A stretch of 39,089 nucleotides of DNA from a virus. This document shows, one piece after another, positions 209-10,068 of this stretch. Made by a program: the position numbers and the translations under genes. How positions within the stretch are numbered: position 1 is the first letter of the stretch; each line of letters opens with the position of its first letter. Under the pieces are notes generated by a model. It made no database searches, had not been told where the DNA came from, and saw only the letters and a list, made by a program, of their open reading frames with translations. The stretch covers positions 1 to 39,089 of the IMG/VR virus record IMGVR_UViG_3300006192_000014; one strand, given 5' to 3'.

Positions 209-1399
209 TTATTCCTCGCTGGCCTCGGAGGCGGTCAGGGTGAGGCTTTCGAGTGTGGCGAGCGCGTCCGCAGCCACGGCGACGTCGGCGACCGGGGAGG
301 CCCAATCGACCTTCTTCACGCCGGGCACGGCCATGACGGCGGCGGTGAGGCGGTCCAGGGTGACGTCCTCGCCGATCTGGAGCGGGGTGATCCCCTTGAC
401 CGAGGCCGGGTCGGTGAACAGGGCGCGGAGGCGCTGGGCGGCCTCGGCCTTGGCGCTGTCGGCATGGGTGCCGGGATAGAGCGTCAACGCGCCGGTGATG
501 GCGAGCGGCACGGCCTGCGGGCCTCGCGCCTGCCAGTCGTCGTTGACCGGCGGTCCGGCCTGTACGTCCTCGGGCTTCGCGCCGGTGGCCACGGCCTGCC
601 GGACGTTTACCAGCAGCGCGTCGGTGGGGATGCCCGCCGCGCCCTTGACAATGACGTCCACCGTGCCCTGGCCGCGCGGATGCTGGTCCAGCACTTTGAC
701 GGCCACGGTGCCGGTCACGGACAGCGCCCACGAGGCATAGGCGTACTTGGTCATGCCGTTGTTGCCCATCCAGCGCAGGATGTACCGCTCGCGCAGTTTC
801 TCCAGCGTCTCAATGTCGGCCCCTTCCGAGGTCAGCCAGTCGGCAGAGTTGGCAACGGCGTCCACGCCGGAGATGGTCGTGACCATTTCGGTGATCTGCC
901 CTGCCGAGGCGTTCGACGCCGCGCCGTATTCCTCGGCCTCCACCGGGACCGCGACCTCGTTCATGCCGTTCTGAATAACCGCGTCCTGGGTGGTGACATA
1001 ACGGTAGACGTTCCCGGCCCCGTCCGTCTCGGTGCGGACGATCTTGCCCGCCGGGATCGGCACGTTGCCGGAGGTGGACACGCGGGCGAACCGGACCAAG
1101 CCAAAGGCCTTGGTGGCTTGCTTGCGTGGCGCTTCCACCTGCTCGGCGTGCCATTCCATCCACTCCTCGTCGGTGGCGGTCTTGGGCGCGGCCTGCTCGA
1201 ACACGGCGGTCAGGAGCTGGTAGAGCTGATACAGCCCCCAGCAGAAGATTTCCAGGAGGCCGCGCACCACGCCCTTGTTCAGGTTCAGGCGGCGCGGCAG
1301 CCAGCCCTTGGCCGCGTATTCCTCCTGCACGTCCTCCACATGGCCGAAGACCATGGAGCGCACGTCGTCGAGGGTCTTAGACAACTGCGGGGTCGGCAT
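209..1399 (-). CDS. Baseplate J-like protein (Mu gp47)
   Basis: A 396-residue baseplate wedge protein that builds the inner baseplate of the contractile tail together with gp46 and gp48. The central part (SGNVPIPAGKIVRTETDG, near residue 112, then a VPVEAEEYGAASNASAG stretch) is the characteristic baseplate J core, and the length is normal for the family. The gene overlaps the end of gp46 by 23 nt and is followed after three bases by the gp48-like start, as expected for co-translated Mu baseplate genes. Nothing suggests damage. Confidence 0.9.
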   Translation of the reverse strand: MPTPQLSKTLDDVRSMVFGHVEDVQEEYAAKGWLPRRLNLNKGVVRGLLEIFCWGLYQLYQLLTAVFEQAAPKTATDEEWMEWHAEQVEAPRKQATKAFGLVRFARVSTSGNVPIPAGKIVRTETDGAGNVYRYVTTQDAVIQNGMNEVAVPVEAEEYGAASNASAGQITEMVTTISGVDAVANSADWLTSEGADIETLEKLRERYILRWMGNNGMTKYAYASWALSVTGTVAVKVLDQHPRGQGTVDVIVKGAAGIPTDALLVNVRQAVATGAKPEDVQAGPPVNDDWQARGPQAVPLAITGALTLYPGTHADSAKAEAAQRLRALFTDPASVKGITPLQIGEDVTLDRLTAAVMAVPGVKKVDWASPVADVAVAADALATLESLTLTASEASEE

Positions 1400-1814
1400 C
1401 CTGGATCACCATTTCCTTTTTGGATTTGTCCACCGTGATGACGAGGTTTCGCTCGTGGTCGGTGTCGATGAAGTGGAACGAGGATTCGGCCCGGATGGAC
1501 GTCTCGTCCCAGTGCGTGACCGAGCAGGCCACGGTGCCGGGCTGGACGCGCGGGTCCTCGTTCAGACGGCGCTTGACTTCAACCGCAAAGCCGATCCGCG
1601 CCTCCTCGGTGTTCTCAGCATAGACCCAGTCGCGCAGGAGCGAGCCGAAATTCTTGTCATAGAACAGGGAAGCAAGGTACGTATCCAAGCGAAGGATAAT
1701 GTCCTGCACGCCCGTGTCCGTGCCGTCCGTGAGCACCAGCTCGCCGTTGGCGGCCACGCGGGCCTGCATGTCGGAGTCGAGGGCTATGTCTTGGCCGAAG
1801 ATGTCAGTGGACAT
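1377..1814 (-). CDS. Baseplate wedge protein, GPW/gp25 family (Mu gp46)
   Basis: A 145-residue gp46/gp25-like baseplate protein. The family signature is clear: an N-terminal strand with ANGELVLTDGTDTGVQDI (22-39), a hydrophobic YLASLFYDKNFGS segment and a C-terminal ERNLVITVD. The start is ATG at 1814. In a standard Mu layout the gp45 stop would lie immediately upstream. Here about 1.84 kb of + strand cassettes separate them. Two degenerate copies of this gene's first ~30 codons occur in that insert (near 2389-2464 and 3073-3166), so this start region has been duplicated repeatedly. Confidence 0.9.
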   Translation of the reverse strand: MSTDIFGQDIALDSDMQARVAANGELVLTDGTDTGVQDIILRLDTYLASLFYDKNFGSLLRDWVYAENTEEARIGFAVEVKRRLNEDPRVQPGTVACSVTHWDETSIRAESSFHFIDTDHERNLVITVDKSKKEMVIQDADPAVV

Positions 1815-1867
1815 TATTTTGCCTATACACTTGTGCTAAAAGTAAAAAAAAGAGGGAGGGTGCCGAG

Positions 1868-2374
1868 ATGTCTTTGAATACTTTGCAGCAGGCTATACTT
1901 GAAGAACTGGACAATAATTGTGGTGATTCTGTGGGGAGAGACCACCTGGTATCGCAGGTACTGGGCGAAGGGGCCGAAAACGACAAGTTGAAACAGCTTT
2001 ATTTTGAGTTGCAATCCCTTGAAGAAGAGCAACTGGTTAAAGTCCTTTGGGTGAATTCCTTGGATGGCAAAGAATTTCTCGATGCCCAAATAAGGCCAAA
2101 AGGCAGAGATCGGCTGTCTGAGGATGGTGGCCTCACGGCTGAACAACATATTGTTACTGTTCGGTTCGATATTGAGAGCCTGCGTGAAGCAATTGCCGCA
2201 GGCCTGCTCACACCCAATGTGCCGGAGGAAAAGCAAGGCGCTCTGATGAAGGCGATTCGGGAAGCGCCCGGTACGATGCTGCAAACGGCGGTGACCAAGA
2301 TGGTTGAAAAGGGCATGAGCGATCCGGTTGGCACGGCCAAGGCCGTGGCCGGGTTGTTTGGAATAACGTGGTAA
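1868..2374 (+). CDS. Accessory cassette gene 1: winged-helix-like protein with conserved DGGL C-terminal domain
   Basis: A 168-residue soluble protein of unknown function, encoded against the late genes and visibly AT-richer than them. Residues 1-85 look like a winged helix (helices, then a two-strand wing ending IRPKGRDRL). From DGGL (86-89) to the C-terminal Trp it shares a domain with the two following + strand genes (VTVRFDIESLRE, then PEEKQGALMKAIREAP, then AGLFGITW). I recall similar 'KG.D.L..DGGLSA' proteins as common uncharacterised genes of mobile elements. A purine-rich GGAGG lies about 9 nt before the ATG. The gene diverges from gp46 (53 bp between starts), so its promoter must lie in or beside the gp46 start. 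Likely expressed in the lysogen (inference). Confidence 0.75.
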   Translation: MSLNTLQQAILEELDNNCGDSVGRDHLVSQVLGEGAENDKLKQLYFELQSLEEEQLVKVLWVNSLDGKEFLDAQIRPKGRDRLSEDGGLTAEQHIVTVRFDIESLREAIAAGLLTPNVPEEKQGALMKAIREAPGTMLQTAVTKMVEKGMSDPVGTAKAVAGLFGITW

Positions 2375-2388
2375 GAGAGCCGTATTCG

Positions 2389-2464
2389 TGCCGCTGTTGG
2401 AGGCCACTTGGGTCTGCATGTCGATGTCGAAGGCTATGTCTTGTCCGGAGATATCCTTTGTTAT
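2389..2464 (-). pseudogene. Relic A: decayed 5' fragment of gp46
   Basis: Read on the minus strand, this segment gives KDISGQDIAFDIDMQTQVASN. It aligns with the start of the intact gp46 (TDIFGQDIALDSDMQARVAAN). The start codon has become ATA (2464-2462), and about 17 bases covering the GELVLT codons are missing before homology fades near cassette gene 1's stop. It lies immediately upstream of + strand cassette gene 2. It cannot encode a working baseplate protein. It may persist as a recombination handle or as the promoter region of the divergent gene (inference). Confidence 0.85.
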
Positions 2465-2503
2465 TATTTGAACATCTCTACAAAGCAGGTAATGAGGTAA
2501 AGG

Positions 2504-3061
2504 ATGAGACTTGACCACAGAGTTCAAAGTAAGGCGTTGTGCGAATTGGCCGCTGCGTATCCCTCGCAGATGAGCCAAACAAAAGTCGTAAAACGCTTGA
2601 AAGCGTGGCTTGCAGAGAATGAAGAAGAAATGGGACTCACAGATGCTGGGGCGAACGAACTGATTCGGTTCATTAAAATGAACCTGAATTATATGAAAGA
2701 GCATGAGCTGATTAAGGCCATCAATTTGAGTGTGGATGTATTTGGAATAGACATCCCCCTCCCGTTTAGCTGGGCCATAACGGCAAAGGGACTTGATTAT
2801 CTGGAAGAGGACGGTGGGCTGTCCGCAGTTTTCAACACCGTGACGGTCAAGTTTGACGTGGACAACATACGGGAATTGGTCGAGGCGGGTCTGCTCTCGG
2901 GCAATGTACCAAAGGAAAAGCAAAGCGCTCTGAAAAAGGCCATTCATGAAGCACCCGCAACGATTTTGCAAACGGCGATATCTACTATTGTTGGGAAAGG
3001 CTTGAGTGACCCTGCCGGTACGGCCAAGGTCGTAGCCGGGCTGTTTGGAGTGTCGTGGTAA
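2504..3061 (+). CDS. Accessory cassette gene 2: winged-helix-like protein with conserved DGGL C-terminal domain
   Basis: A 185-residue paralogue of cassette gene 1. The N-terminal ~100 residues are a divergent winged-helix-like region (helices, then SWAITAKGLDYLEE at 89-102). The C-terminal part from DGGL (103-106) is closely similar to gene 1: FNTVTVKFDVDNIRELVEA, KEKQSALKKAIHEAP, SDPAGTAKVVAGLFGVSW. The ATG at 2504 has GAGG six bases upstream. No signal peptide or membrane segment is visible. It sits between two gp46 relics. A conserved C-terminus with a variable N-terminus suggests the N-terminal half carries the specificity, such as a DNA or protein target (inference). The function is unknown. 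Confidence 0.75.
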   Translation: MRLDHRVQSKALCELAAAYPSQMSQTKVVKRLKAWLAENEEEMGLTDAGANELIRFIKMNLNYMKEHELIKAINLSVDVFGIDIPLPFSWAITAKGLDYLEEDGGLSAVFNTVTVKFDVDNIRELVEAGLLSGNVPKEKQSALKKAIHEAPATILQTAISTIVGKGLSDPAGTAKVVAGLFGVSW

Positions 3062-3072
3062 CAAGGCTGTGT

Positions 3073-3166
3073 CTAGCCCTTCAGTGAGCACCAGCTCTCC
3101 ATTAGCGGTCATACGGATTTGCATGATTTCGTCGAAATTTATATTTGGGGCGAAGTTGTCAGTCAT
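3073..3166 (-). pseudogene. Relic B: 5' fragment of gp46 with intact start codon
   Basis: From an ATG at 3166 the minus strand reads MTDNFAPNINFDEIMQIRMT, then ANGELVLTEGLDTA. This matches the first ~32 codons of gp46 (MSTDIFGQDIALDSDMQARV, then AANGELVLTDGTDTG). Homology stops just before the end of cassette gene 2. It keeps the start and the GELVLT motif that relic A has lost, but has its own substitutions. It therefore looks like a separate acquisition from a diverged relative rather than a recent tandem copy. It lies directly upstream of cassette gene 3. Confidence 0.85.
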
Positions 3167-3185
3167 GTGTACAGGAGAAATTTAA

Positions 3186-3650
3186 GTGTTAAATCGAAAG
3201 TTACAGTTGGATATTTTGCTTCAATTAAACCGGACGTACCCTGACTCCAGAAAGAGTCGGCCAATTAAATCGGCAGTTGGAGACCCAAGAGAATTTGATT
3301 ATAATCTTAAATATTTGTGTGGTCATGGCCTTGTTGATCGATCCCGAATGCATCGACAGCATCTGTGGGACTATAAGATTACAGTCAAAGGAATAGATTT
3401 TCTCGCTGATGACGGTGGCCTTTCCGCTATCCTCAACACCGTGACGGTCAAGTTCGACATTGAAAACACCCGCGAGCTTCTGACCAGTGGATTGCTTTCG
3501 ATGGGTTTTCCCGAAAAAAAGAAAGGAGTGCTCCGCACCGCCATTGAAGGGGCTACCACTGAAACAATCAAAGACCTTGTGAAGGGCGTATTGAGCAATC
3601 CAGCCGGAGCAATCGATCTCGCCCAAAGTTTGTTGAAGATTGTGTTTTAG
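3186..3650 (+). CDS. Accessory cassette gene 3: winged-helix-like protein with conserved DGGL C-terminal domain
   Basis: The 154-residue third member of the family. The GTG start at 3186 is supported by AGGAG about 8 nt upstream. The N-terminal ~70 residues are winged-helix-like, ending ITVKGIDFLADDGGL (65-79). The C-terminal domain matches genes 1 and 2 at NTVTVKFDIENTRELL and at a Lys-rich KKKGVLRTAIEGA segment. It diverges at the end, lacking the Gly-Leu-Phe-Gly...Trp tail. Only two bases separate its stop from the gp45 stop, so the two genes converge tail to tail. It is AT-rich compared with gp45. The function is unknown. Confidence 0.72.
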   Translation: MLNRKLQLDILLQLNRTYPDSRKSRPIKSAVGDPREFDYNLKYLCGHGLVDRSRMHRQHLWDYKITVKGIDFLADDGGLSAILNTVTVKFDIENTRELLTSGLLSMGFPEKKKGVLRTAIEGATTETIKDLVKGVLSNPAGAIDLAQSLLKIVF

Positions 3651-3652
3651 CC

Positions 3653-4399
3653 TCATATCGTCCCTCCGCTCCGGCTTCCGGCATGACTGTTTCCAGCGGT
3701 ATCCAGGCTGCCGCCGATTTCCGCATCTTCCAGCACGGTGAGGCGGGTGCAGACGATGGGACCGACCATTTGGAGGCTGCCCTCCTGGGCGGTGTGGGCC
3801 TTGCAGCTCACATTGCCGACCGCTCCGCCGGGGCCTGAGGATTGGACGTTGCCTTCCTGGATGATGAGCGGGGCCTTGATGGTCCAGACGCCGCCGATGG
3901 TTTCGGTTTTGTTGCCGCCCACTTCCACGGTCTTGTCGCCGCCGATCCTGGTCTCGGCGTTGGCCGGAGTGATCTCCAGGATGTTCCTGGCCGCGTCGAT
4001 CTTGATGTACGTGCCGTCGCTGTGATGGATCACGTAGGCCCCGACCTCGCAGGCCGGTGCGCCGTTGCCGGTCCAGCGGAAATTGGAAATGCGCGGGAAG
4101 TTCGGGTCGCCGTCGTAATATTCGAGGTCGCAGAGTGAATCGACCAGCGGCGGGCAGACCACGCCGCGATTCGGCCCGGCCCACATGATGGGGATTTCCA
4201 CGCGGGGAACGACCGGCTCCTTTTCGTCCACGGATTCATCATTGCGCAACGGCTGCACGTCGGCCCAGTAGCGGCCATCCTCAGCCGGGTAGGTGGCGAC
4301 GATCTTGGCCTTGCGCACCACGCGGTAGTAGGCCCGGAGGTTGGGCATGGCGATCTCGACAACGCGCTGAATGAGGTGTAGCAGGTTGGATTTAGGCAT
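3653..4399 (-). CDS. Baseplate spike / assembly protein (Mu gp45, gpV-like)
   Basis: A 248-residue central spike protein of the baseplate that pierces the outer membrane on infection. The N-terminal half has an OB-like domain (YRVVRKAKIVATYPAEDGRY, then WADVQPLRNDES). The C-terminal half carries the Gly-rich beta-helix pattern of phage spikes (RIGGDKTVEVGGNKTETIGG, near 152-171). ATG at 4399 is chosen over upstream TTG/GTG-like codons; the accessory gene starting at 4422 diverges from it across only 22 bp. The 3' end abuts + strand cassette gene 3. Confidence 0.85.
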   Translation of the reverse strand: MPKSNLLHLIQRVVEIAMPNLRAYYRVVRKAKIVATYPAEDGRYWADVQPLRNDESVDEKEPVVPRVEIPIMWAGPNRGVVCPPLVDSLCDLEYYDGDPNFPRISNFRWTGNGAPACEVGAYVIHHSDGTYIKIDAARNILEITPANAETRIGGDKTVEVGGNKTETIGGVWTIKAPLIIQEGNVQSSGPGGAVGNVSCKAHTAQEGSLQMVGPIVCTRLTVLEDAEIGGSLDTAGNSHAGSRSGGTI

Positions 4400-4421: not shown

Positions 4422-4763
4422 ATGTTTAAAATGGCAATAAGCGTTAACGGAGGAGCAAAACTTCCAATAGAAGAAGGAAGCCTTAAATTTTGCGAAATTG
4501 TGGGGCGGGATTACTTCGGTTCGCCCAACAATATGCAAGATGTGACTCCGAAAGGAACTCATACAATTGACTTCACTTTGGCAAAAACAGCACAGGATGT
4601 TTCTTGCTTGTCGGGCGAGATAAAATCTTGCACATTTTATTCGTATGATGATGTCTATGAATTCAAAGAGGTGGCATTGGTAAATCCTGTTGAACATCAT
4701 AAAGGGATGAAACAATACAAATTGAGCGGGACAGCGATGGACCATTACCCCTCCCTTCCGTAG
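4422..4763 (+). CDS. Accessory gene of unknown function between gp44- and gp45-like genes
   Basis: A 113-residue protein on the + strand, AT-rich against GC-rich neighbours. It has a good ribosome site (AAGGAG, 5 nt before ATG). It looks like a small soluble beta-rich protein: MFKMAISVNGGAKLPIEEGS, then a KTAQDVSCLSGEIKSCTFYS stretch with two Cys, and a C-terminal MDHYPSLP. No signal peptide, membrane helix or recognised motif is seen. Its last 19 nt overlap the last 19 nt of the gp44-like gene on the other strand, so it cannot be cleanly lost without altering that gene. Its position fits the other lysogeny-expressed cassettes, but no duplicated late-gene fragment is seen here. Confidence 0.65.
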   Translation: MFKMAISVNGGAKLPIEEGSLKFCEIVGRDYFGSPNNMQDVTPKGTHTIDFTLAKTAQDVSCLSGEIKSCTFYSYDDVYEFKEVALVNPVEHHKGMKQYKLSGTAMDHYPSLP

Positions 4764-5533: not shown

Positions 5534-6030
5534 CGGGAACGCTCCCCTATGGATATGTCGAGGCCGGGACCGATGCCGACTTTCACTGCCAGTGTGCCGA
5601 CACGCTTTTCCGCCCGGATGATGGGCGGGCGGTGCTCGGTGAACCGGAGCGTGGCGAGGATCACGTCGTCCTGGTCGGATTCGGACGAATCCAGCCCGGC
5701 GAAGACTACGCGCTCGATGCCCCGCGCCGAGACATGGGCGTTCGCCACGTCCAGGACGCGGGGATTCGCGGCGGTGTCGTGACCCCGGAACAGCGCGTCC
5801 AGGGCGGCGAGCTTGTCGTAGCAGGTGGTCTCGTCCGTAAGCAGCTCCACGGTCAGCGTGATGGCGCTGTCGTCCCACCCCTTGGGCGTCTTGGTCTTGC
5901 CGGACAGCCCGTCGCGCTCGGCCTCGTCGAAGACCACGGCCCCGCGCACGTTCAGGGACTTGAGGATTCCCGGCACGAGCTTGGAGCCGAGGCGCACTTC
6001 GCCATGAGAAAAGGTCAGCATGCCGTCCAT
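5530..6030 (-). CDS. Tail protein in the Mu gp43 (DNA circularisation N-like) position
   Basis: A 166-residue tail/baseplate protein between tape measure and gp44. The start is taken as ATG at 6030, which overlaps the tape-measure stop (TGATG) and has a GGGAGGG sequence about 9 nt upstream. An in-frame GTG at 6039 lies too close to that site. Visible features are an N-terminal hydrophobic strand (KLVPGILKSLNVRGAVVFDE) and a C-terminal LRFTEHRPPII. The product is far shorter than Mu gp43, so the assignment rests on gene order; the family is not certain. Confidence 0.65.
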   Translation of the reverse strand: MDGMLTFSHGEVRLGSKLVPGILKSLNVRGAVVFDEAERDGLSGKTKTPKGWDDSAITLTVELLTDETTCYDKLAALDALFRGHDTAANPRVLDVANAHVSARGIERVVFAGLDSSESDQDDVILATLRFTEHRPPIIRAEKRVGTLAVKVGIGPGLDISIGERSR

Positions 6031-8081
6031 CAGTCCCACCCTCCCGACTCCTGGCCGGAACCGTCGTGCTGGGTCACGAGCTGCTGGAGCGCCGCCATGA
6101 AGCCGTCCGCGTCCTGCACGCCGGGCAGGGTCACGGAAAGATGCTGGATGGTGATGGTGTTGCCCGACCGGCGGACCGTGGCCCGGTCCGGCGCTGGGGC
6201 GAACGCCGGGACCGGGGCCGGTCCTTGGATGGAAGAAGGGGCAGGCGGGGCGACCGCAAGGTTGGCGGCCACGGCCACGCCCGCCAGTGCGCCGGTAGCG
6301 GTGGCGTGCAGGTTCGGGGCGGCGGCGCGGATACCGGTGCCGAGGGTGTCCATGATCTTGGTGCCGGACAGGGTCAGGGCCGAGAGCGGCCCTTCCTTGG
6401 CATCGGAGAACGGCAGGAGCTGGCGGACCTTTTCCAGGCCGGATTTGACCAGATCATACGGCATGGCGATGACCGACTTAATGCCGTCCGCCAGCGTCAT
6501 GAACAGCTTGCGGCCCGATTCGGTCAGGTCGATGTCGAACAGGGAGGTCAGCCGGTCCCACAAGGCCCCGGCGGCGTTGTAGATGTCGGTGAAATAGTAG
6601 GCGAACGCGCCCATGATGCCCGCGCCGGACAGGATGGAGAAAAAGTCGCCGACCGCAGAGGCCGCCGCCTTGATGTTGTCCCACAGCATCACGAATCCAG
6701 CGGCAAGATGGTCCATGATCTCCCGCGCCGTATCGCAGTTGTTGTACAGGGCGATGAGCCCGGCCAGGAGTGCGACCACGGCCAGGACGATGAGGCCGAT
6801 GGGGTTGGCGAGGATCACGGCGTTGAAGGCTGCCCAAGCGACGGTCCCGGCCCATACCGCTGCCGACATGAGCGTGATGGCGATGACGGTCACGGAAAGC
6901 ACGGCGGCGACGACCAACAGGAACTTGCCCACCGGGTTGGCGGCGATCGCGTCCAGGCCGCGCACCACCCAGGTGGCGGCTTGGGCCACCGCCCGCATGG
7001 CGGGCAGAAAGAGTGAACCGATGGTGATTTGCAGGGACTCGAAGGCGCTGCCGAGGGCCTTGTTGTCTCCGGCAAGGTTGTCGTTCTGCCGGGCGGCCAC
7101 TTGGGCGGCGGTGCCTGCGGCGGAGAGCTGGTCGGCGTACTTGGTGATGCCGCCCGCCCCGGCCTGATCGAACAGGGCCAGCACGGCGCTCATGGCCTCG
7201 GTGCCGAAGACGGTCTTGGTGAAGGCCATCTTCTGGGCGCTGCCCATGGTTTCCGTGGCCCGCGCCATATCGCCGAGGATAGCGATGGGGTTGCGCAGGT
7301 TGCCCACGGCATCCGTGGTGACCACGCCGAGGGCGGCCATGGACTTGGCGGCCTCGGAGGACGGCGCGGCGAGGCCGTTGAGCATGGCGCGGAGCGCGGT
7401 ACCGGCCTGCGAGCCCTTGATGCCCACGTTGCCGAGCAGCCCGGCCATGGCGGCGGTGCCTTCCAGGGACACGCCCGCTTTTTCCGCCACCGGGGCCACG
7501 TATTTCATGGTCTCGCCAAGCAGCTCCAGGGAGGTGTTCGAAGTGGTGAACGCGGCGGTCAGGGTGTCGGCAACGCGCGGCATTTGCGCGGCCTGCATGT
7601 TGAATGCGGACAGGATGTCGGACGAGATGTCGGCGGCCCGGCCCAGATCGGTGGCCCCGGCGCTCGCCATGTTCAGCACGGCGGGAAGCGCGGCGATGTT
7701 CTCCTTGACCGAGAACCCGGCCATGGCGAGATACTTCTGCCCTTCGGCCACCTGCATGGCGGACCATGCCGTGGTGGCTCCCAGCTCGCGGGCTGCCCCC
7801 GAGAGCGCCCGCATGTCTTCGGGCGTAGCGCGGGACACCGCGCCCACGTTCGCCATGGCCGCTTCGAAGTCGGCTGCTGTGGATATGCACGGCGCAAGGG
7901 CCGCCAGGAGCACCCCGGCGGCCAGGGCGATGGGCAACAGCGATTTCGCCAGCCCCAACGCTCGGGAACTCAAGGAAGCGGCGGCGTTGTTGGTGGCGTG
8001 CATCTGCCCCGCGATATTCTTCAGGGGAGCGGTGATCATGTCCACGAGGGACATGGATGCCATGACGCTGAAAATTTCCAT
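6030..8081 (-). CDS. Tail tape measure protein (Mu gp42-like)
   Basis: A 683-residue tape measure protein that sets tail length and is ejected with the DNA. The N-terminus (MEIFSVMASMSLVDMITAPL) is typical of Mu-type tape measures. Residues ~75-300 match the TP901-type tape measure core (TTAWSAMQVAEGQKYLAMAG, then SLEGTAAMAGLLGNVGIKGS). Long Ala-rich hydrophobic segments lie near residues 380-450. The ATG at 8081 has no recognisable Shine-Dalgarno sequence and lies inside a long predicted hairpin (8069-8111). In Mu the tail chaperone gene would be directly upstream. Here two + strand cassettes and a relic copy of this gene's start intervene. Confidence 0.92.
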   Translation of the reverse strand: MEIFSVMASMSLVDMITAPLKNIAGQMHATNNAAASLSSRALGLAKSLLPIALAAGVLLAALAPCISTAADFEAAMANVGAVSRATPEDMRALSGAARELGATTAWSAMQVAEGQKYLAMAGFSVKENIAALPAVLNMASAGATDLGRAADISSDILSAFNMQAAQMPRVADTLTAAFTTSNTSLELLGETMKYVAPVAEKAGVSLEGTAAMAGLLGNVGIKGSQAGTALRAMLNGLAAPSSEAAKSMAALGVVTTDAVGNLRNPIAILGDMARATETMGSAQKMAFTKTVFGTEAMSAVLALFDQAGAGGITKYADQLSAAGTAAQVAARQNDNLAGDNKALGSAFESLQITIGSLFLPAMRAVAQAATWVVRGLDAIAANPVGKFLLVVAAVLSVTVIAITLMSAAVWAGTVAWAAFNAVILANPIGLIVLAVVALLAGLIALYNNCDTAREIMDHLAAGFVMLWDNIKAAASAVGDFFSILSGAGIMGAFAYYFTDIYNAAGALWDRLTSLFDIDLTESGRKLFMTLADGIKSVIAMPYDLVKSGLEKVRQLLPFSDAKEGPLSALTLSGTKIMDTLGTGIRAAAPNLHATATGALAGVAVAANLAVAPPAPSSIQGPAPVPAFAPAPDRATVRRSGNTITIQHLSVTLPGVQDADGFMAALQQLVTQHDGSGQESGGWD

Positions 8082-8111
8082 GGGGCTAAGATAGCCGCAT
8101 GGAGATTTGCA
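8069..8111 (-). promoter_or_regulatory. Hairpin enclosing the tape-measure start codon
   Basis: Two 14-nt arms (8069-8082 and 8098-8111) are inverted repeats matching at 12 of 14 positions around a 15-nt spacer, and the spacer itself folds (GGCTA-AGA-TAGCC). On the minus-strand mRNA the downstream arm contains the tape-measure ATG and its next codons, so the start would be sequestered. There is no Shine-Dalgarno sequence before the ATG. The structure may control translation of the tape measure (inference). A perfect-arm version is present at the relic copy (9712-9754). Confidence 0.6.
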
Positions 8112-8218
8112 TTCAGGAAACTGTGCGAAGGGTGCTTGCTAACTAACGAATAAAAAAACTAAAGTGGTAGCATTTGATTTGAGTGGCTGTTTTCTTTGTC
8201 CACACTAAGGAGATATTT

Positions 8219-9568
8219 ATGGATTTTATCGCGAACGGCGTAAATGGCAAATATTTATCAAATGTTCTCCCTTCTAAAAAAACGGAAGTGGATGGTGTCT
8301 ACGCCGCCATTGCCTATGGATCGCCAATAAAACATGAGTATAATGACTTAATTGGAAACTGCATTCAGAACAAATTACGCCTCGATATTTGGATGCGATA
8401 TGATCACACAGTACCTGTTGCCATTCCTGTTTTGAGGCAGCTGCTCGACAATCATCAAAATAATATTTTTTGTAAGCTTGTCCCTGACCGCTTTCATTCA
8501 AAAGTCATCTGGTGGAAAGGGTATGGGGCATATATTGGGTCTGCGAATCTTACGGATAGAGCTTGGATGAACAATGTTGAGGCAGGCATTTTTCTTAGTG
8601 AAGGAGATTTGCAGGCTGACGGCATGGCGCTGCAACTTGAATCTTTTTTCGACAGGCTGACAGGCTTAGATGTTGCTTTTGAGCTTTCAGAGGAGGTTAT
8701 TCAGGAGTTGACAGAGATAGAAGAACTGAGAGCTCCAAATAATGATACAGGTAAAGACAAACGAAAAACACCTGAATGGCGTGGGTTATCTTTTGTCCAA
8801 GACAAGAAAAAGTCTCCAGAAAGACGAAAAGAAAATTTCAGACAAGAGTGGCAGAGTACGCTTACAACCCTTCGGAGCATCGGCGAACAACTTGCGGATG
8901 CAAAACCATCATGGGTGTCTGAGGATGTACCGATAAACTGGCAAGTAGATCAATTCCTCCACGCATATTATTACAATAAGGTTTCTGATGGGGGGAGTCG
9001 GCCTTTTGAGGAGTTTTACCAACGGCATCACAGCGATCCGCAAAAGGCTTTACAAGAAGCTGTTAATTGGTGGGTAGGGACACTCACTCCACCGTCACAC
9101 GAAGATCGTACGCTTGATGAGCAGGCTCCGTTCATTCGGGAAGAACTTCAAAAAGATAAAATTCTTCATTTGGATGAGAACAAATTCTCTACGATCTGCT
9201 CTTACACTCATGCCACACGCGACCATATTTCCAAAATTTCTTTAGCAGTCCTTGGGAAGCCTGAATTACAATCACTTTCTCTTGAAGAACGCATCCCATT
9301 GTTCGCCAACTGGCTTTGGAATAAAAAGAATAATAAAGGGTTAGGAGTTCGAGGCTTGTTGAACTTTGTTTTATATGAAGGCGAGGATTCGTCCCTTTGG
9401 GAACGACTCTATTTAGCTGGGCGAACTGAAGCATATCGCCTTCCCCACTATGGACTCAATTCTTTAGCAGAGCTTGTAGGATGGGCTCGACCTGAAATAG
9501 CGCCTCCTCGTAATGGAAGAACAAGTAAGGCTCTTAGGGCTCTTGGGTATGATGTTAAGGTCTATTAG
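8219..9568 (+). CDS. PLD-like nuclease-domain protein, accessory cassette
   Basis: A 449-residue protein on the + strand, AT-rich. ATG at 8219 is chosen over an upstream in-frame codon at 8183 because AAGGAG lies 7 nt before it. Residues ~20-125 resemble a phospholipase D/HKD nuclease domain: beta strand VDGVYAAIAYGSP, then FHSK (H93, K95), then YIGSANLTDRAWMNNVE (105-121). The classical Asp after HxK is not evident, as in some restriction-type PLD domains. Residues ~200-449 are a separate Trp-rich alpha-helical region with no recognised motif. A single HKD suggests a dimer (family knowledge). Such stand-alone PLD proteins occur in phage defence and restriction, so an exclusion role is plausible but unproven. 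Confidence 0.75.
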   Translation: MDFIANGVNGKYLSNVLPSKKTEVDGVYAAIAYGSPIKHEYNDLIGNCIQNKLRLDIWMRYDHTVPVAIPVLRQLLDNHQNNIFCKLVPDRFHSKVIWWKGYGAYIGSANLTDRAWMNNVEAGIFLSEGDLQADGMALQLESFFDRLTGLDVAFELSEEVIQELTEIEELRAPNNDTGKDKRKTPEWRGLSFVQDKKKSPERRKENFRQEWQSTLTTLRSIGEQLADAKPSWVSEDVPINWQVDQFLHAYYYNKVSDGGSRPFEEFYQRHHSDPQKALQEAVNWWVGTLTPPSHEDRTLDEQAPFIREELQKDKILHLDENKFSTICSYTHATRDHISKISLAVLGKPELQSLSLEERIPLFANWLWNKKNNKGLGVRGLLNFVLYEGEDSSLWERLYLAGRTEAYRLPHYGLNSLAELVGWARPEIAPPRNGRTSKALRALGYDVKVY

Positions 9569-9628
9569 CTACTCAGATGGCAAACATTGAGTATCTTTTA
9601 GCTTTCCGAATTTGTGATCAAACATAAG

Positions 9629-9724
9629 TTAGCAGGGTACCTCCCCCTGTTCAGTGATTTTTCTCAAAGGGGCGTTGGTCATGTCCACAAAGGACATGGA
9701 TGCTATGACGCTGAAAATCTCCAT
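9629..9724 (-). pseudogene. Relic: 5' fragment of the tape-measure gene
   Basis: From an intact ATG at 9724 the minus strand reads MEIFSVIASMSFVDMTNAPL, then RKI, and runs into a stop after 31 codons (TAA at 9631-9629). The intact tape measure begins MEIFSVMASMSLVDMITAPL, then KNI. Homology also extends about 60 bp upstream of the start (8082-8143 against 9725-9786). Beyond codon ~23 the sequences are unrelated. The fragment sits between the PLD-like cassette and the zinc-ribbon cassette, as the gp46 relics do in the other stack. Confidence 0.9.
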
Positions 9725-9754
9725 GCGGCTATCTTGGGCCCATGGAGATTTTCA
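9712..9754. repeat. Perfect 14-bp inverted repeat at the relic tape-measure start
   Basis: Arms 9712-9725 and 9741-9754 are perfect inverted repeats (TGAAAATCTCCATG and its complement) around a 15-nt spacer. The spacer matches the reverse complement of the spacer at the intact tape-measure start (8083-8097) at 13 of 15 positions, much better than the direct orientation. The element is therefore conserved but flipped between the two copies. Confidence 0.75.
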
Positions 9755-9793
9755 TTTAGGAAGCTGTGAAAATGGGGCTTGCTCTTTTTTCAA

Positions 9794-9817
9794 ATGTGTG
9801 TATGTGTGTATGTGTGT
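9794..9817 (+). repeat. Three tandem copies of ATGTGTGT
   Basis: Three perfect 8-bp units lie 38 bp upstream of the zinc-ribbon gene's ATG. An open frame continues upstream through them to an ATG at 9772 and a GTG at 9766. Slippage would therefore change either promoter spacing or, if translation starts upstream, the reading frame. Confidence 0.7.
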
Positions 9818-9855
9818 TCGAAGGTAAAACGTGTACCTATTCAAAAGGAGAAAAT

Positions 9856-10068
9856 ATGGCTGGTAAAATGTGTCCAGATTGCGGGGAAGCTACTTTCCAT
9901 AAAACCCCCACAGGAAGAGAGTGTTCTCAGTGTGGTTACGAGATGAAAGTTCCCGCCAACAGTGGGAAAGGTGGTCGAGGTAAATTCTGTCCGAACTGTG
10001 ACCGTTGGACAGTTTTTGATGGTGAATGTACGAATTGTGGAGCTACCTTTAAAAGAAAAAAGAAATAG
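9856..10068 (+). CDS. Small double zinc-ribbon protein, accessory cassette
   Basis: A 70-residue basic protein with four CxxC knuckles (C6/C9, C23/C26, C45/C48, C58/C61), that is, two zinc ribbons joined by a Gly/Lys linker, and a KRKKK tail. Such ribbons bind nucleic acid or act as adaptors (family knowledge). The start is ATG 9856, which has AAGGAG 5 nt upstream; a 28-residue Cys-rich upstream extension from ATG 9772 is open but has a weaker ribosome site. It is AT-rich, on the + strand, and its stop lies 3 nt from the end of the frameshifted tail-chaperone frame that converges on it. It is preceded by the tape-measure relic and an 8-bp tandem repeat. Function unknown. Confidence 0.75.
   Translation: MAGKMCPDCGEATFHKTPTGRECSQCGYEMKVPANSGKGGRGKFCPNCDRWTVFDGECTNCGATFKRKKK

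Follow-up and report, generated by a model that had tools for sequence, protein, structure and literature searches.

Between the baseplate genes gp45 and gp46, the Mu-like prophage record IMGVR_UViG_3300006192_000014 of IMG/VR carries a stack of three genes of one protein family, PHROG 3983, separated by decayed copies of the 5' end of gp46. We analyzed the whole 39,089 nucleotides (nt) of this record (the window), with the gene order numbered 5' to 3' on the given strand; host genes could be read directly at its right end (an AraC-type regulator and a TonB-type receptor). The same junction is empty or differently occupied in related phages (loci designated by L and a number), the gp46 remnants share one joint, and both the N-terminal heads and the C-terminal tails of the encoded proteins have been exchanged among relatives. 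The genes may serve the prophage as exclusion factors of variable specificity.

The elements of the stack run in the order gp46, gene 1, relic A, gene 2, relic B, gene 3 and gp45 (Table 1). The first-pass annotation had described three plus-strand cassettes in this order, each with a copy of the gp46 5' end, and every one of these elements is present. The 5' end of the intact gp46 is the parent type of both relics, and gp45 is 66-82% identical to its relatives. All three cassette genes have intact reading frames, lie antisense to the gp45-gp46 operon and have a Shine-Dalgarno-like sequence directly 5' to the start codon. The G+C content of the insert is 0.45-0.51, compared with approximately 0.60-0.63 for gp46 and gp45.

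The similarities of the relics to gp46 are far beyond chance. Relic A matches the gp46 of the window (79.5% identity over 78 nt, E 3e-16), but has lost its start codon (now ATA) and about 18 nt by deletion. Relic B is most similar to the gp46 of L017 (82% over 90 nt, E 9e-23) and of L016 (80%), and it also matches a relic in L016 (76% over 123 nt) in an alignment that extends through the gene end, the stop codon and the joint. In the two relics in which it could be measured, B and that of L016, the ratio of nonsynonymous to synonymous change (dN/dS) is approximately 0.6 versus approximately 0.08 for the intact gp46 5' ends of the close relatives L017 and L015, in a comparison of 30-33 codons only. 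By this comparison relic B and the L016 relic appear to be evolving as non-coding DNA; the possibility that the relics are still coding genes was not supported, given the relaxed dN/dS and the lost start of relic A.

Relics A, B and that of L016 begin at the same gp46 codon and are joined at an equal distance past the cassette stop codon. This shared breakpoint indicates descent from one founding joint rather than separate insertions. That joint is best read as equivalent to a tandem duplication that ran from gp46 codon ~34-38 as far as the cassette stop; a single staggered crossover between two phages that both carried cassettes would be equivalent as well. Since relic A is nearest to the gp46 of the window and relic B to that of L017 and L016, at least two gp46 lineages have met, and the stack probably grew when a relic recombined with homologous gp46 sequence. 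The relics had been described as different from each other and as the product of successive acquisitions from diverged phages rather than one duplication. They do derive from different gp46 lineages, and material of diverged phages was indeed combined; on the other hand, they are cut at the same codon and share the same joint, which speaks for a single founding event.

Scans with gp47, gp46 and gp45 yielded 67 distinct gp45-gp46 junctions of Mu-like phages; no relatives emerged when genome contigs were scanned with gp47. About half of the junctions are empty, the gap being shorter than 200 nt in 34 of the 67, and in L015 the junction is fully closed, with the gp45 stop overlapping the gp46 start in the sequence ATGA. 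A single antisense winged-helix gene occupies many of the others, among them those of most phages in the closest clade and of two phages further away (L151 and L155); this gene is of one of three types. Genes with the same DGGL tail as in the window are found in L012, L017, L023, L126, L151 and L155; genes with a membrane-helix tail in L135/L020, L136, L138, L139, L141 and as the second gene of L016; and genes consisting of the head only, with no tail, in L132/L018 and L149. The heads of the DGGL and membrane types are homologous (hhalign probability 98, E 2.5e-13), and hydropathy supports the C-terminal membrane helix of the latter. In L016 two genes are stacked, with a gp46 fragment whose cut falls at the same position as in the relics of the window, and partial gp46 matches were found only in these two phages. 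In more distant phages the gap is also used for other genes, some of them of structural type and on the late strand; in L162 and L164 it holds an antisense gene of 232 residues with two CxxC pairs, for which a DUF4145-like label is only a possibility. Related phages differ in the number and type of cassettes: zero, one, two or three are present, empty sites occur beside sites with other cassettes, and the flanking genes are conserved. The gp45-gp46 layout is that of a variable accessory-gene (moron) site with one shared founding joint, which would later have been spread and lengthened by recombination.

All three cassette proteins match PHROG 3983, a family with no annotated function, nearly end to end. 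In an AlphaFold2 model of the gene 2 product (mean pLDDT, the per-residue model confidence, 87.5; 70 homologues as input), residues 1-102 form a PadR-like winged helix, which is followed by a low-confidence linker carrying the DGG motif and then by a four-helix tail bundle. The DGG motif, which links winged helix and tail, is invariant in all 70 aligned family members; the DGGL tail of gene 3 is more divergent. The N-termini of genes 1-3 are 23-30% identical to one another, and the gene 1 product is 75% identical to those of L012 and L023 in the C-terminus and 23-25% in the N-terminus. The first-pass annotation had limited the likeness of the three genes to an ~80-residue C-terminal domain beginning at DGGL. 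The N-terminal sequences are divergent as described, but they represent one winged-helix fold, and what the genes have in common is the entire fold. Purifying selection acts on the C-termini, with dN of about 0.1-0.25 versus dS of 0.9-1.4 in unsaturated comparisons. None of the three genes received a real assignment in searches of Pfam, NCBIfam and PADLOC, and the PadR profile of Pfam did not match them; a fold search of BFVD returned weak winged-helix matches only. Weak similarity to DUF2513 is present in about one third of the homologues, and weak similarity to YjcQ also occurs in the family. Literature searches for PHROG 3983 and DUF2513 found no paper.

Exchange of the head is seen across the family in a sample of 80 viral loci plus phage records. 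Several pairs of proteins with nearly identical C-termini have unrelated N-termini: 99% versus 51% identity for L096/L105, 98% versus 57% for L084/L089, 93% versus 47% for L058/L082 and 93% versus 27% for L100/L063. The tails of such pairs have dS values of 0.2-0.4, whereas synonymous change in the heads is saturated or nearly so; the heads have therefore been replaced and have not simply diverged rapidly in place. Similarity breaks approximately 20-50 nt before the DGG codons, at -33 or -34 in several pairs. When L058 is compared with L082 and L079, the outer flanks around the exchanged head are ~90-95% identical, so that near-identical tails and unrelated heads lie between conserved flanks; the recognition half has thus been exchanged. 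The Mu-like cassettes of L012 and L023 have the same pattern (C-terminus 85%, N-terminus 29%). L058 lacks a small membrane-type gene that L079 and L082 carry 5' to the PHROG 3983 gene.

One scan of viral contigs confirmed 184 PHROG 3983 relatives. A scan of viral contigs for close relatives of gene 3 gave no match, although an alignment query did find homologues. Prophage genes of the family are spread over diverse bacteria; in E. coli a near copy is present in 28 of 5426 genomes, always in the chromosome. The gene is single-copy in most of the 80 loci fetched. In annotated phages it is located beside CI/Cro regions, or alone and facing against late genes, and its frequent neighbors are CI-like and Arc-like repressors and CII-like activators, according to tallies made with a crude open reading frame (ORF) caller on part of the family.

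A second site in the window, between the tape measure gene and gp41, repeats the design of the gp45-gp46 site. From 8183 to 10068, the 5' end of the tape measure gene is followed by a gene for a PLD-family protein (best PADLOC match DrmC, E 8e-7), a tape measure relic and a zinc-ribbon gene, both genes being antisense to the late operon. The 5' fragment of a flanking late gene is therefore not peculiar to gp46, and it looks like a footprint of cassette addition in this phage. The corresponding gap of related phages contains a Hachiman-type HamB helicase in L119 (E 2e-67), AbiJ_NTD4/DUF7014 proteins in L118 and L121, and in L120 an AAA ATPase matching HEC-03B/PDC-M55A together with a partner gene. 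The L119 helicase gene (6433-8928) likewise has an upstream partner gene (5612-6433). The start of the tape measure gene contains an imperfect palindrome of 43 nt (8069-8111 in the window, and again at 9712-9754), which is also present in L118, L119 and L120 and may be a regulatory or processing site. The gap between gp45 and gp44 is a possible third insertion site; it contains unrelated small antisense ORFs in the window (4422-4763, plus strand, 113 residues) and in L120 (11915-12238, 108 residues), the former with no significant family match in the profile libraries searched.

Table 1. Features of the two cassette sites in the window
Feature	Coordinates	Strand	Basis
gp46 (baseplate protein), intact	1377-1814	-	PHROG 975 baseplate E 2e-11; gp45-gp46-gp47 synteny in relatives
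Cassette gene 1, 168 aa, winged-helix head and DGGL tail	1868-2374	+	ORF; PHROG 3983 E 1e-19
Relic A, decayed gp46 5' end, ~34 codons	~2380-2469	-	Similarity to window gp46; repeat D3
Cassette gene 2, 185 aa	2504-3061	+	PHROG 3983 E 9e-27
Relic B, decayed gp46 5' end, L016/L017 lineage	~3067-3166	-	Similarity to L017 gp46
Cassette gene 3, 154 aa, GTG start	3186-3650	+	PHROG 3983 E 5e-28; AGGAG upstream
gp45 (baseplate hub/spike-like), right border of cassette site	3653-4399	-	PHROG 4011 baseplate E 7e-43
Second-site cassette 1, PLD-family protein	8183-9568	+	PF13091 E 3e-6; PHROG 28026 E 1e-126
Second-site relic, decayed tape measure gene 5' end	9656-9783	-	79.7% over 128 nt to 8013-8140, E 1e-27
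Second-site cassette 2, zinc-ribbon protein	9856-10068	+	ORF and Pfam search

What might these genes do? We give about an even chance to the reading that the PHROG 3983 cassettes, antisense to the late operon, encode exclusion or anti-phage proteins of the prophage whose specificity heads are interchangeable. An anti-phage role is favored by the exchange of heads, by the membrane-tailed versions and by the defense genes in the tape measure-gp41 hotspot. The gp45-gp46 gap is an accessory-gene site that admits small cassettes facing against the late operon, every one of them encoding a winged-helix head and a tail that is helical in the DGGL type or a membrane helix in relatives. The protein would be made by the prophage; its head would recognize a variable feature of an invader, for example DNA or an early protein, and its tail would have a conserved target or act at the membrane. 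Through the first staggered joint a 5' fragment of gp46 would have come to lie beside a cassette, and that fragment, or gp46 itself, by recombining with homologous DNA of relatives, could have lengthened the row until three heads were present in one phage. Upon induction, late transcription running antisense through genes 1-3 would lower their expression. More tentatively, the stack may be a growing, recombination-built exclusion array, in which every cassette couples an exchangeable recognition head to a common effector tail, the relics are homology landing pads that allow new cassettes to enter while old ones are kept, and the late phase switches the array off; we regard this as possible and somewhat doubtful.

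Immunity or exclusion, with variable specificity, had been suggested for these genes before. In keeping with that suggestion, the gene is widespread as a lone prophage gene, frequently beside CI-like repressors, its N-terminus is exchanged and the other hotspot contains defense genes; the role is plausible, but the support is indirect. The resemblance to orphan immunity or toxin cassette arrays that had also been proposed was not upheld as homology, since the profile libraries matched the cassettes to no toxin or immunity family.

Several observations weigh against an exclusion role or an array built for it. The argument from neighborhood is indirect, as the known defense genes lie in the other hotspot and PADLOC found none at the gp45-gp46 site. 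PHROG 3983 proteins match no PADLOC defense model, have no recognized catalytic motif and have no sequence match to solved structures in the PDB; in the fold search their winged helix resembles only PadR-type transcription regulators, and weakly so (best E ~0.007). Promoter and terminator scans of the insert gave chance-level results and so lend no support to expression in the lysogen. The orientation of the genes to their neighbors is mixed across the family, so that the antisense layout is no family rule. Only two stacks were found, those of the window and L016, and separate origins of the three genes are statistically unproven (approximately unbiased (AU) test, p 0.167). A role of the relics as promoters was not supported either, since the scan was at chance level; it gave one weak candidate in relic B, TTTGCA-16-TATATT at 3118-3145.

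The main rival to exclusion, which we consider less probable, is that the proteins regulate genes by binding DNA or serve as auxiliary immunity repressors. In that case the winged helix would bind operators, the tail would dimerize and the heads would track operator specificity; any protection would come from repression of like phages, or the proteins would tune genes of the phage or host. The PadR-like fold, the weak DUF2513 and YjcQ similarities and the frequent CI-like neighbors agree with such a role. However, in the Mu-like phages the cassettes sit inside the baseplate operon, a long way from the early control region, they are absent from about half of the related phages, and membrane-anchored versions occupy the same site. 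Moreover, the heads differ in otherwise near-identical phages, whose own operators should be constant.

It is unlikely that these genes act in lysogenic conversion, benefiting the host or changing its physiology in ways unrelated to phage competition. Their moron-like placement, their lower G+C content compared with that of ~0.6 around them and their wide spread in prophages of diverse bacteria would suit this explanation, but rapid exchange of a recognition domain is typical of conflict genes, and the companion hotspot is rich in defense-like genes. With regard to the origin of the stack, a recent event in which one cassette was duplicated in tandem and then diverged in place would account for the joint common to all relics, and the AU test did not reject a single clade for genes 1-3. 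We nevertheless consider it highly improbable given the low identity of the N-termini, the descent of relics A and B from different gp46 lineages, and the finding that each array gene has its closest C-terminal counterpart in another phage rather than within the array. Least probable of all is that the cassettes are neutral leftovers of illegitimate recombination at a site between two essential genes that tolerates any insert, as the decayed gp46 relics might suggest, because the C-termini are under purifying selection, all three frames are intact and the same gene type recurs at the site in diverged phages.

These results tie a widespread, unstudied prophage family to a signature of N-terminal exchange and to a fixed site of accumulation. 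The decayed 5' end of a flanking gene can serve as a footprint by which stacks of accessory genes may be located in other phages. If the proteins are true exclusion factors, the array would allow head sequence to be mapped to target phage, and the assembly of multi-specificity defense by ordinary recombination could be watched.

Among known systems, the anti-phage gene loci of prophages known as defense hotspots (PMC9122126) are the kind that comes closest and provide a precedent. As in the window, these are small, high-turnover loci between conserved genes that may be empty or filled, sometimes with more than one cassette. At the gp45-gp46 site, in contrast, one gene family dominates rather than many unrelated systems, the cassettes are stacked with structural-gene relics, and the defensive function is deduced indirectly. 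BstA is a prophage abortive-infection protein whose variants carry distinct self-immunity elements (PMC8585504). It resembles the cassette proteins in being prophage-encoded, in having a DNA-binding-type N-terminal domain and in its frequent location beside the cI repressor, but it is single-copy with a KilA-N-like domain, compared with the PadR-like winged helix here, and PADLOC and Pfam detected no BstA or KilA-N homology in the cassette genes. Tha of Staphylococcus prophages is a defense gene in an antisense (noncontiguous-operon) layout that lytic transcription turns off (PMC11087260). The cassette genes are likewise antisense to lytic-phase transcription, and a similar switch is proposed for them; Tha, however, is an RNase of the HEPN type with an inhibitor gene as its partner, and Pfam found neither a HEPN match nor a paired gene in the cassettes. 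BstA and Tha are therefore analogies, not homologies. Elsewhere, PHROG 3983 genes are nearly always single-copy, and stacking was seen only in the phage of the window and L016. Novel features are the stacking of members of one family with decayed 5' ends in between, the exchange of the winged-helix head and the swapping of the tail at a fixed site.

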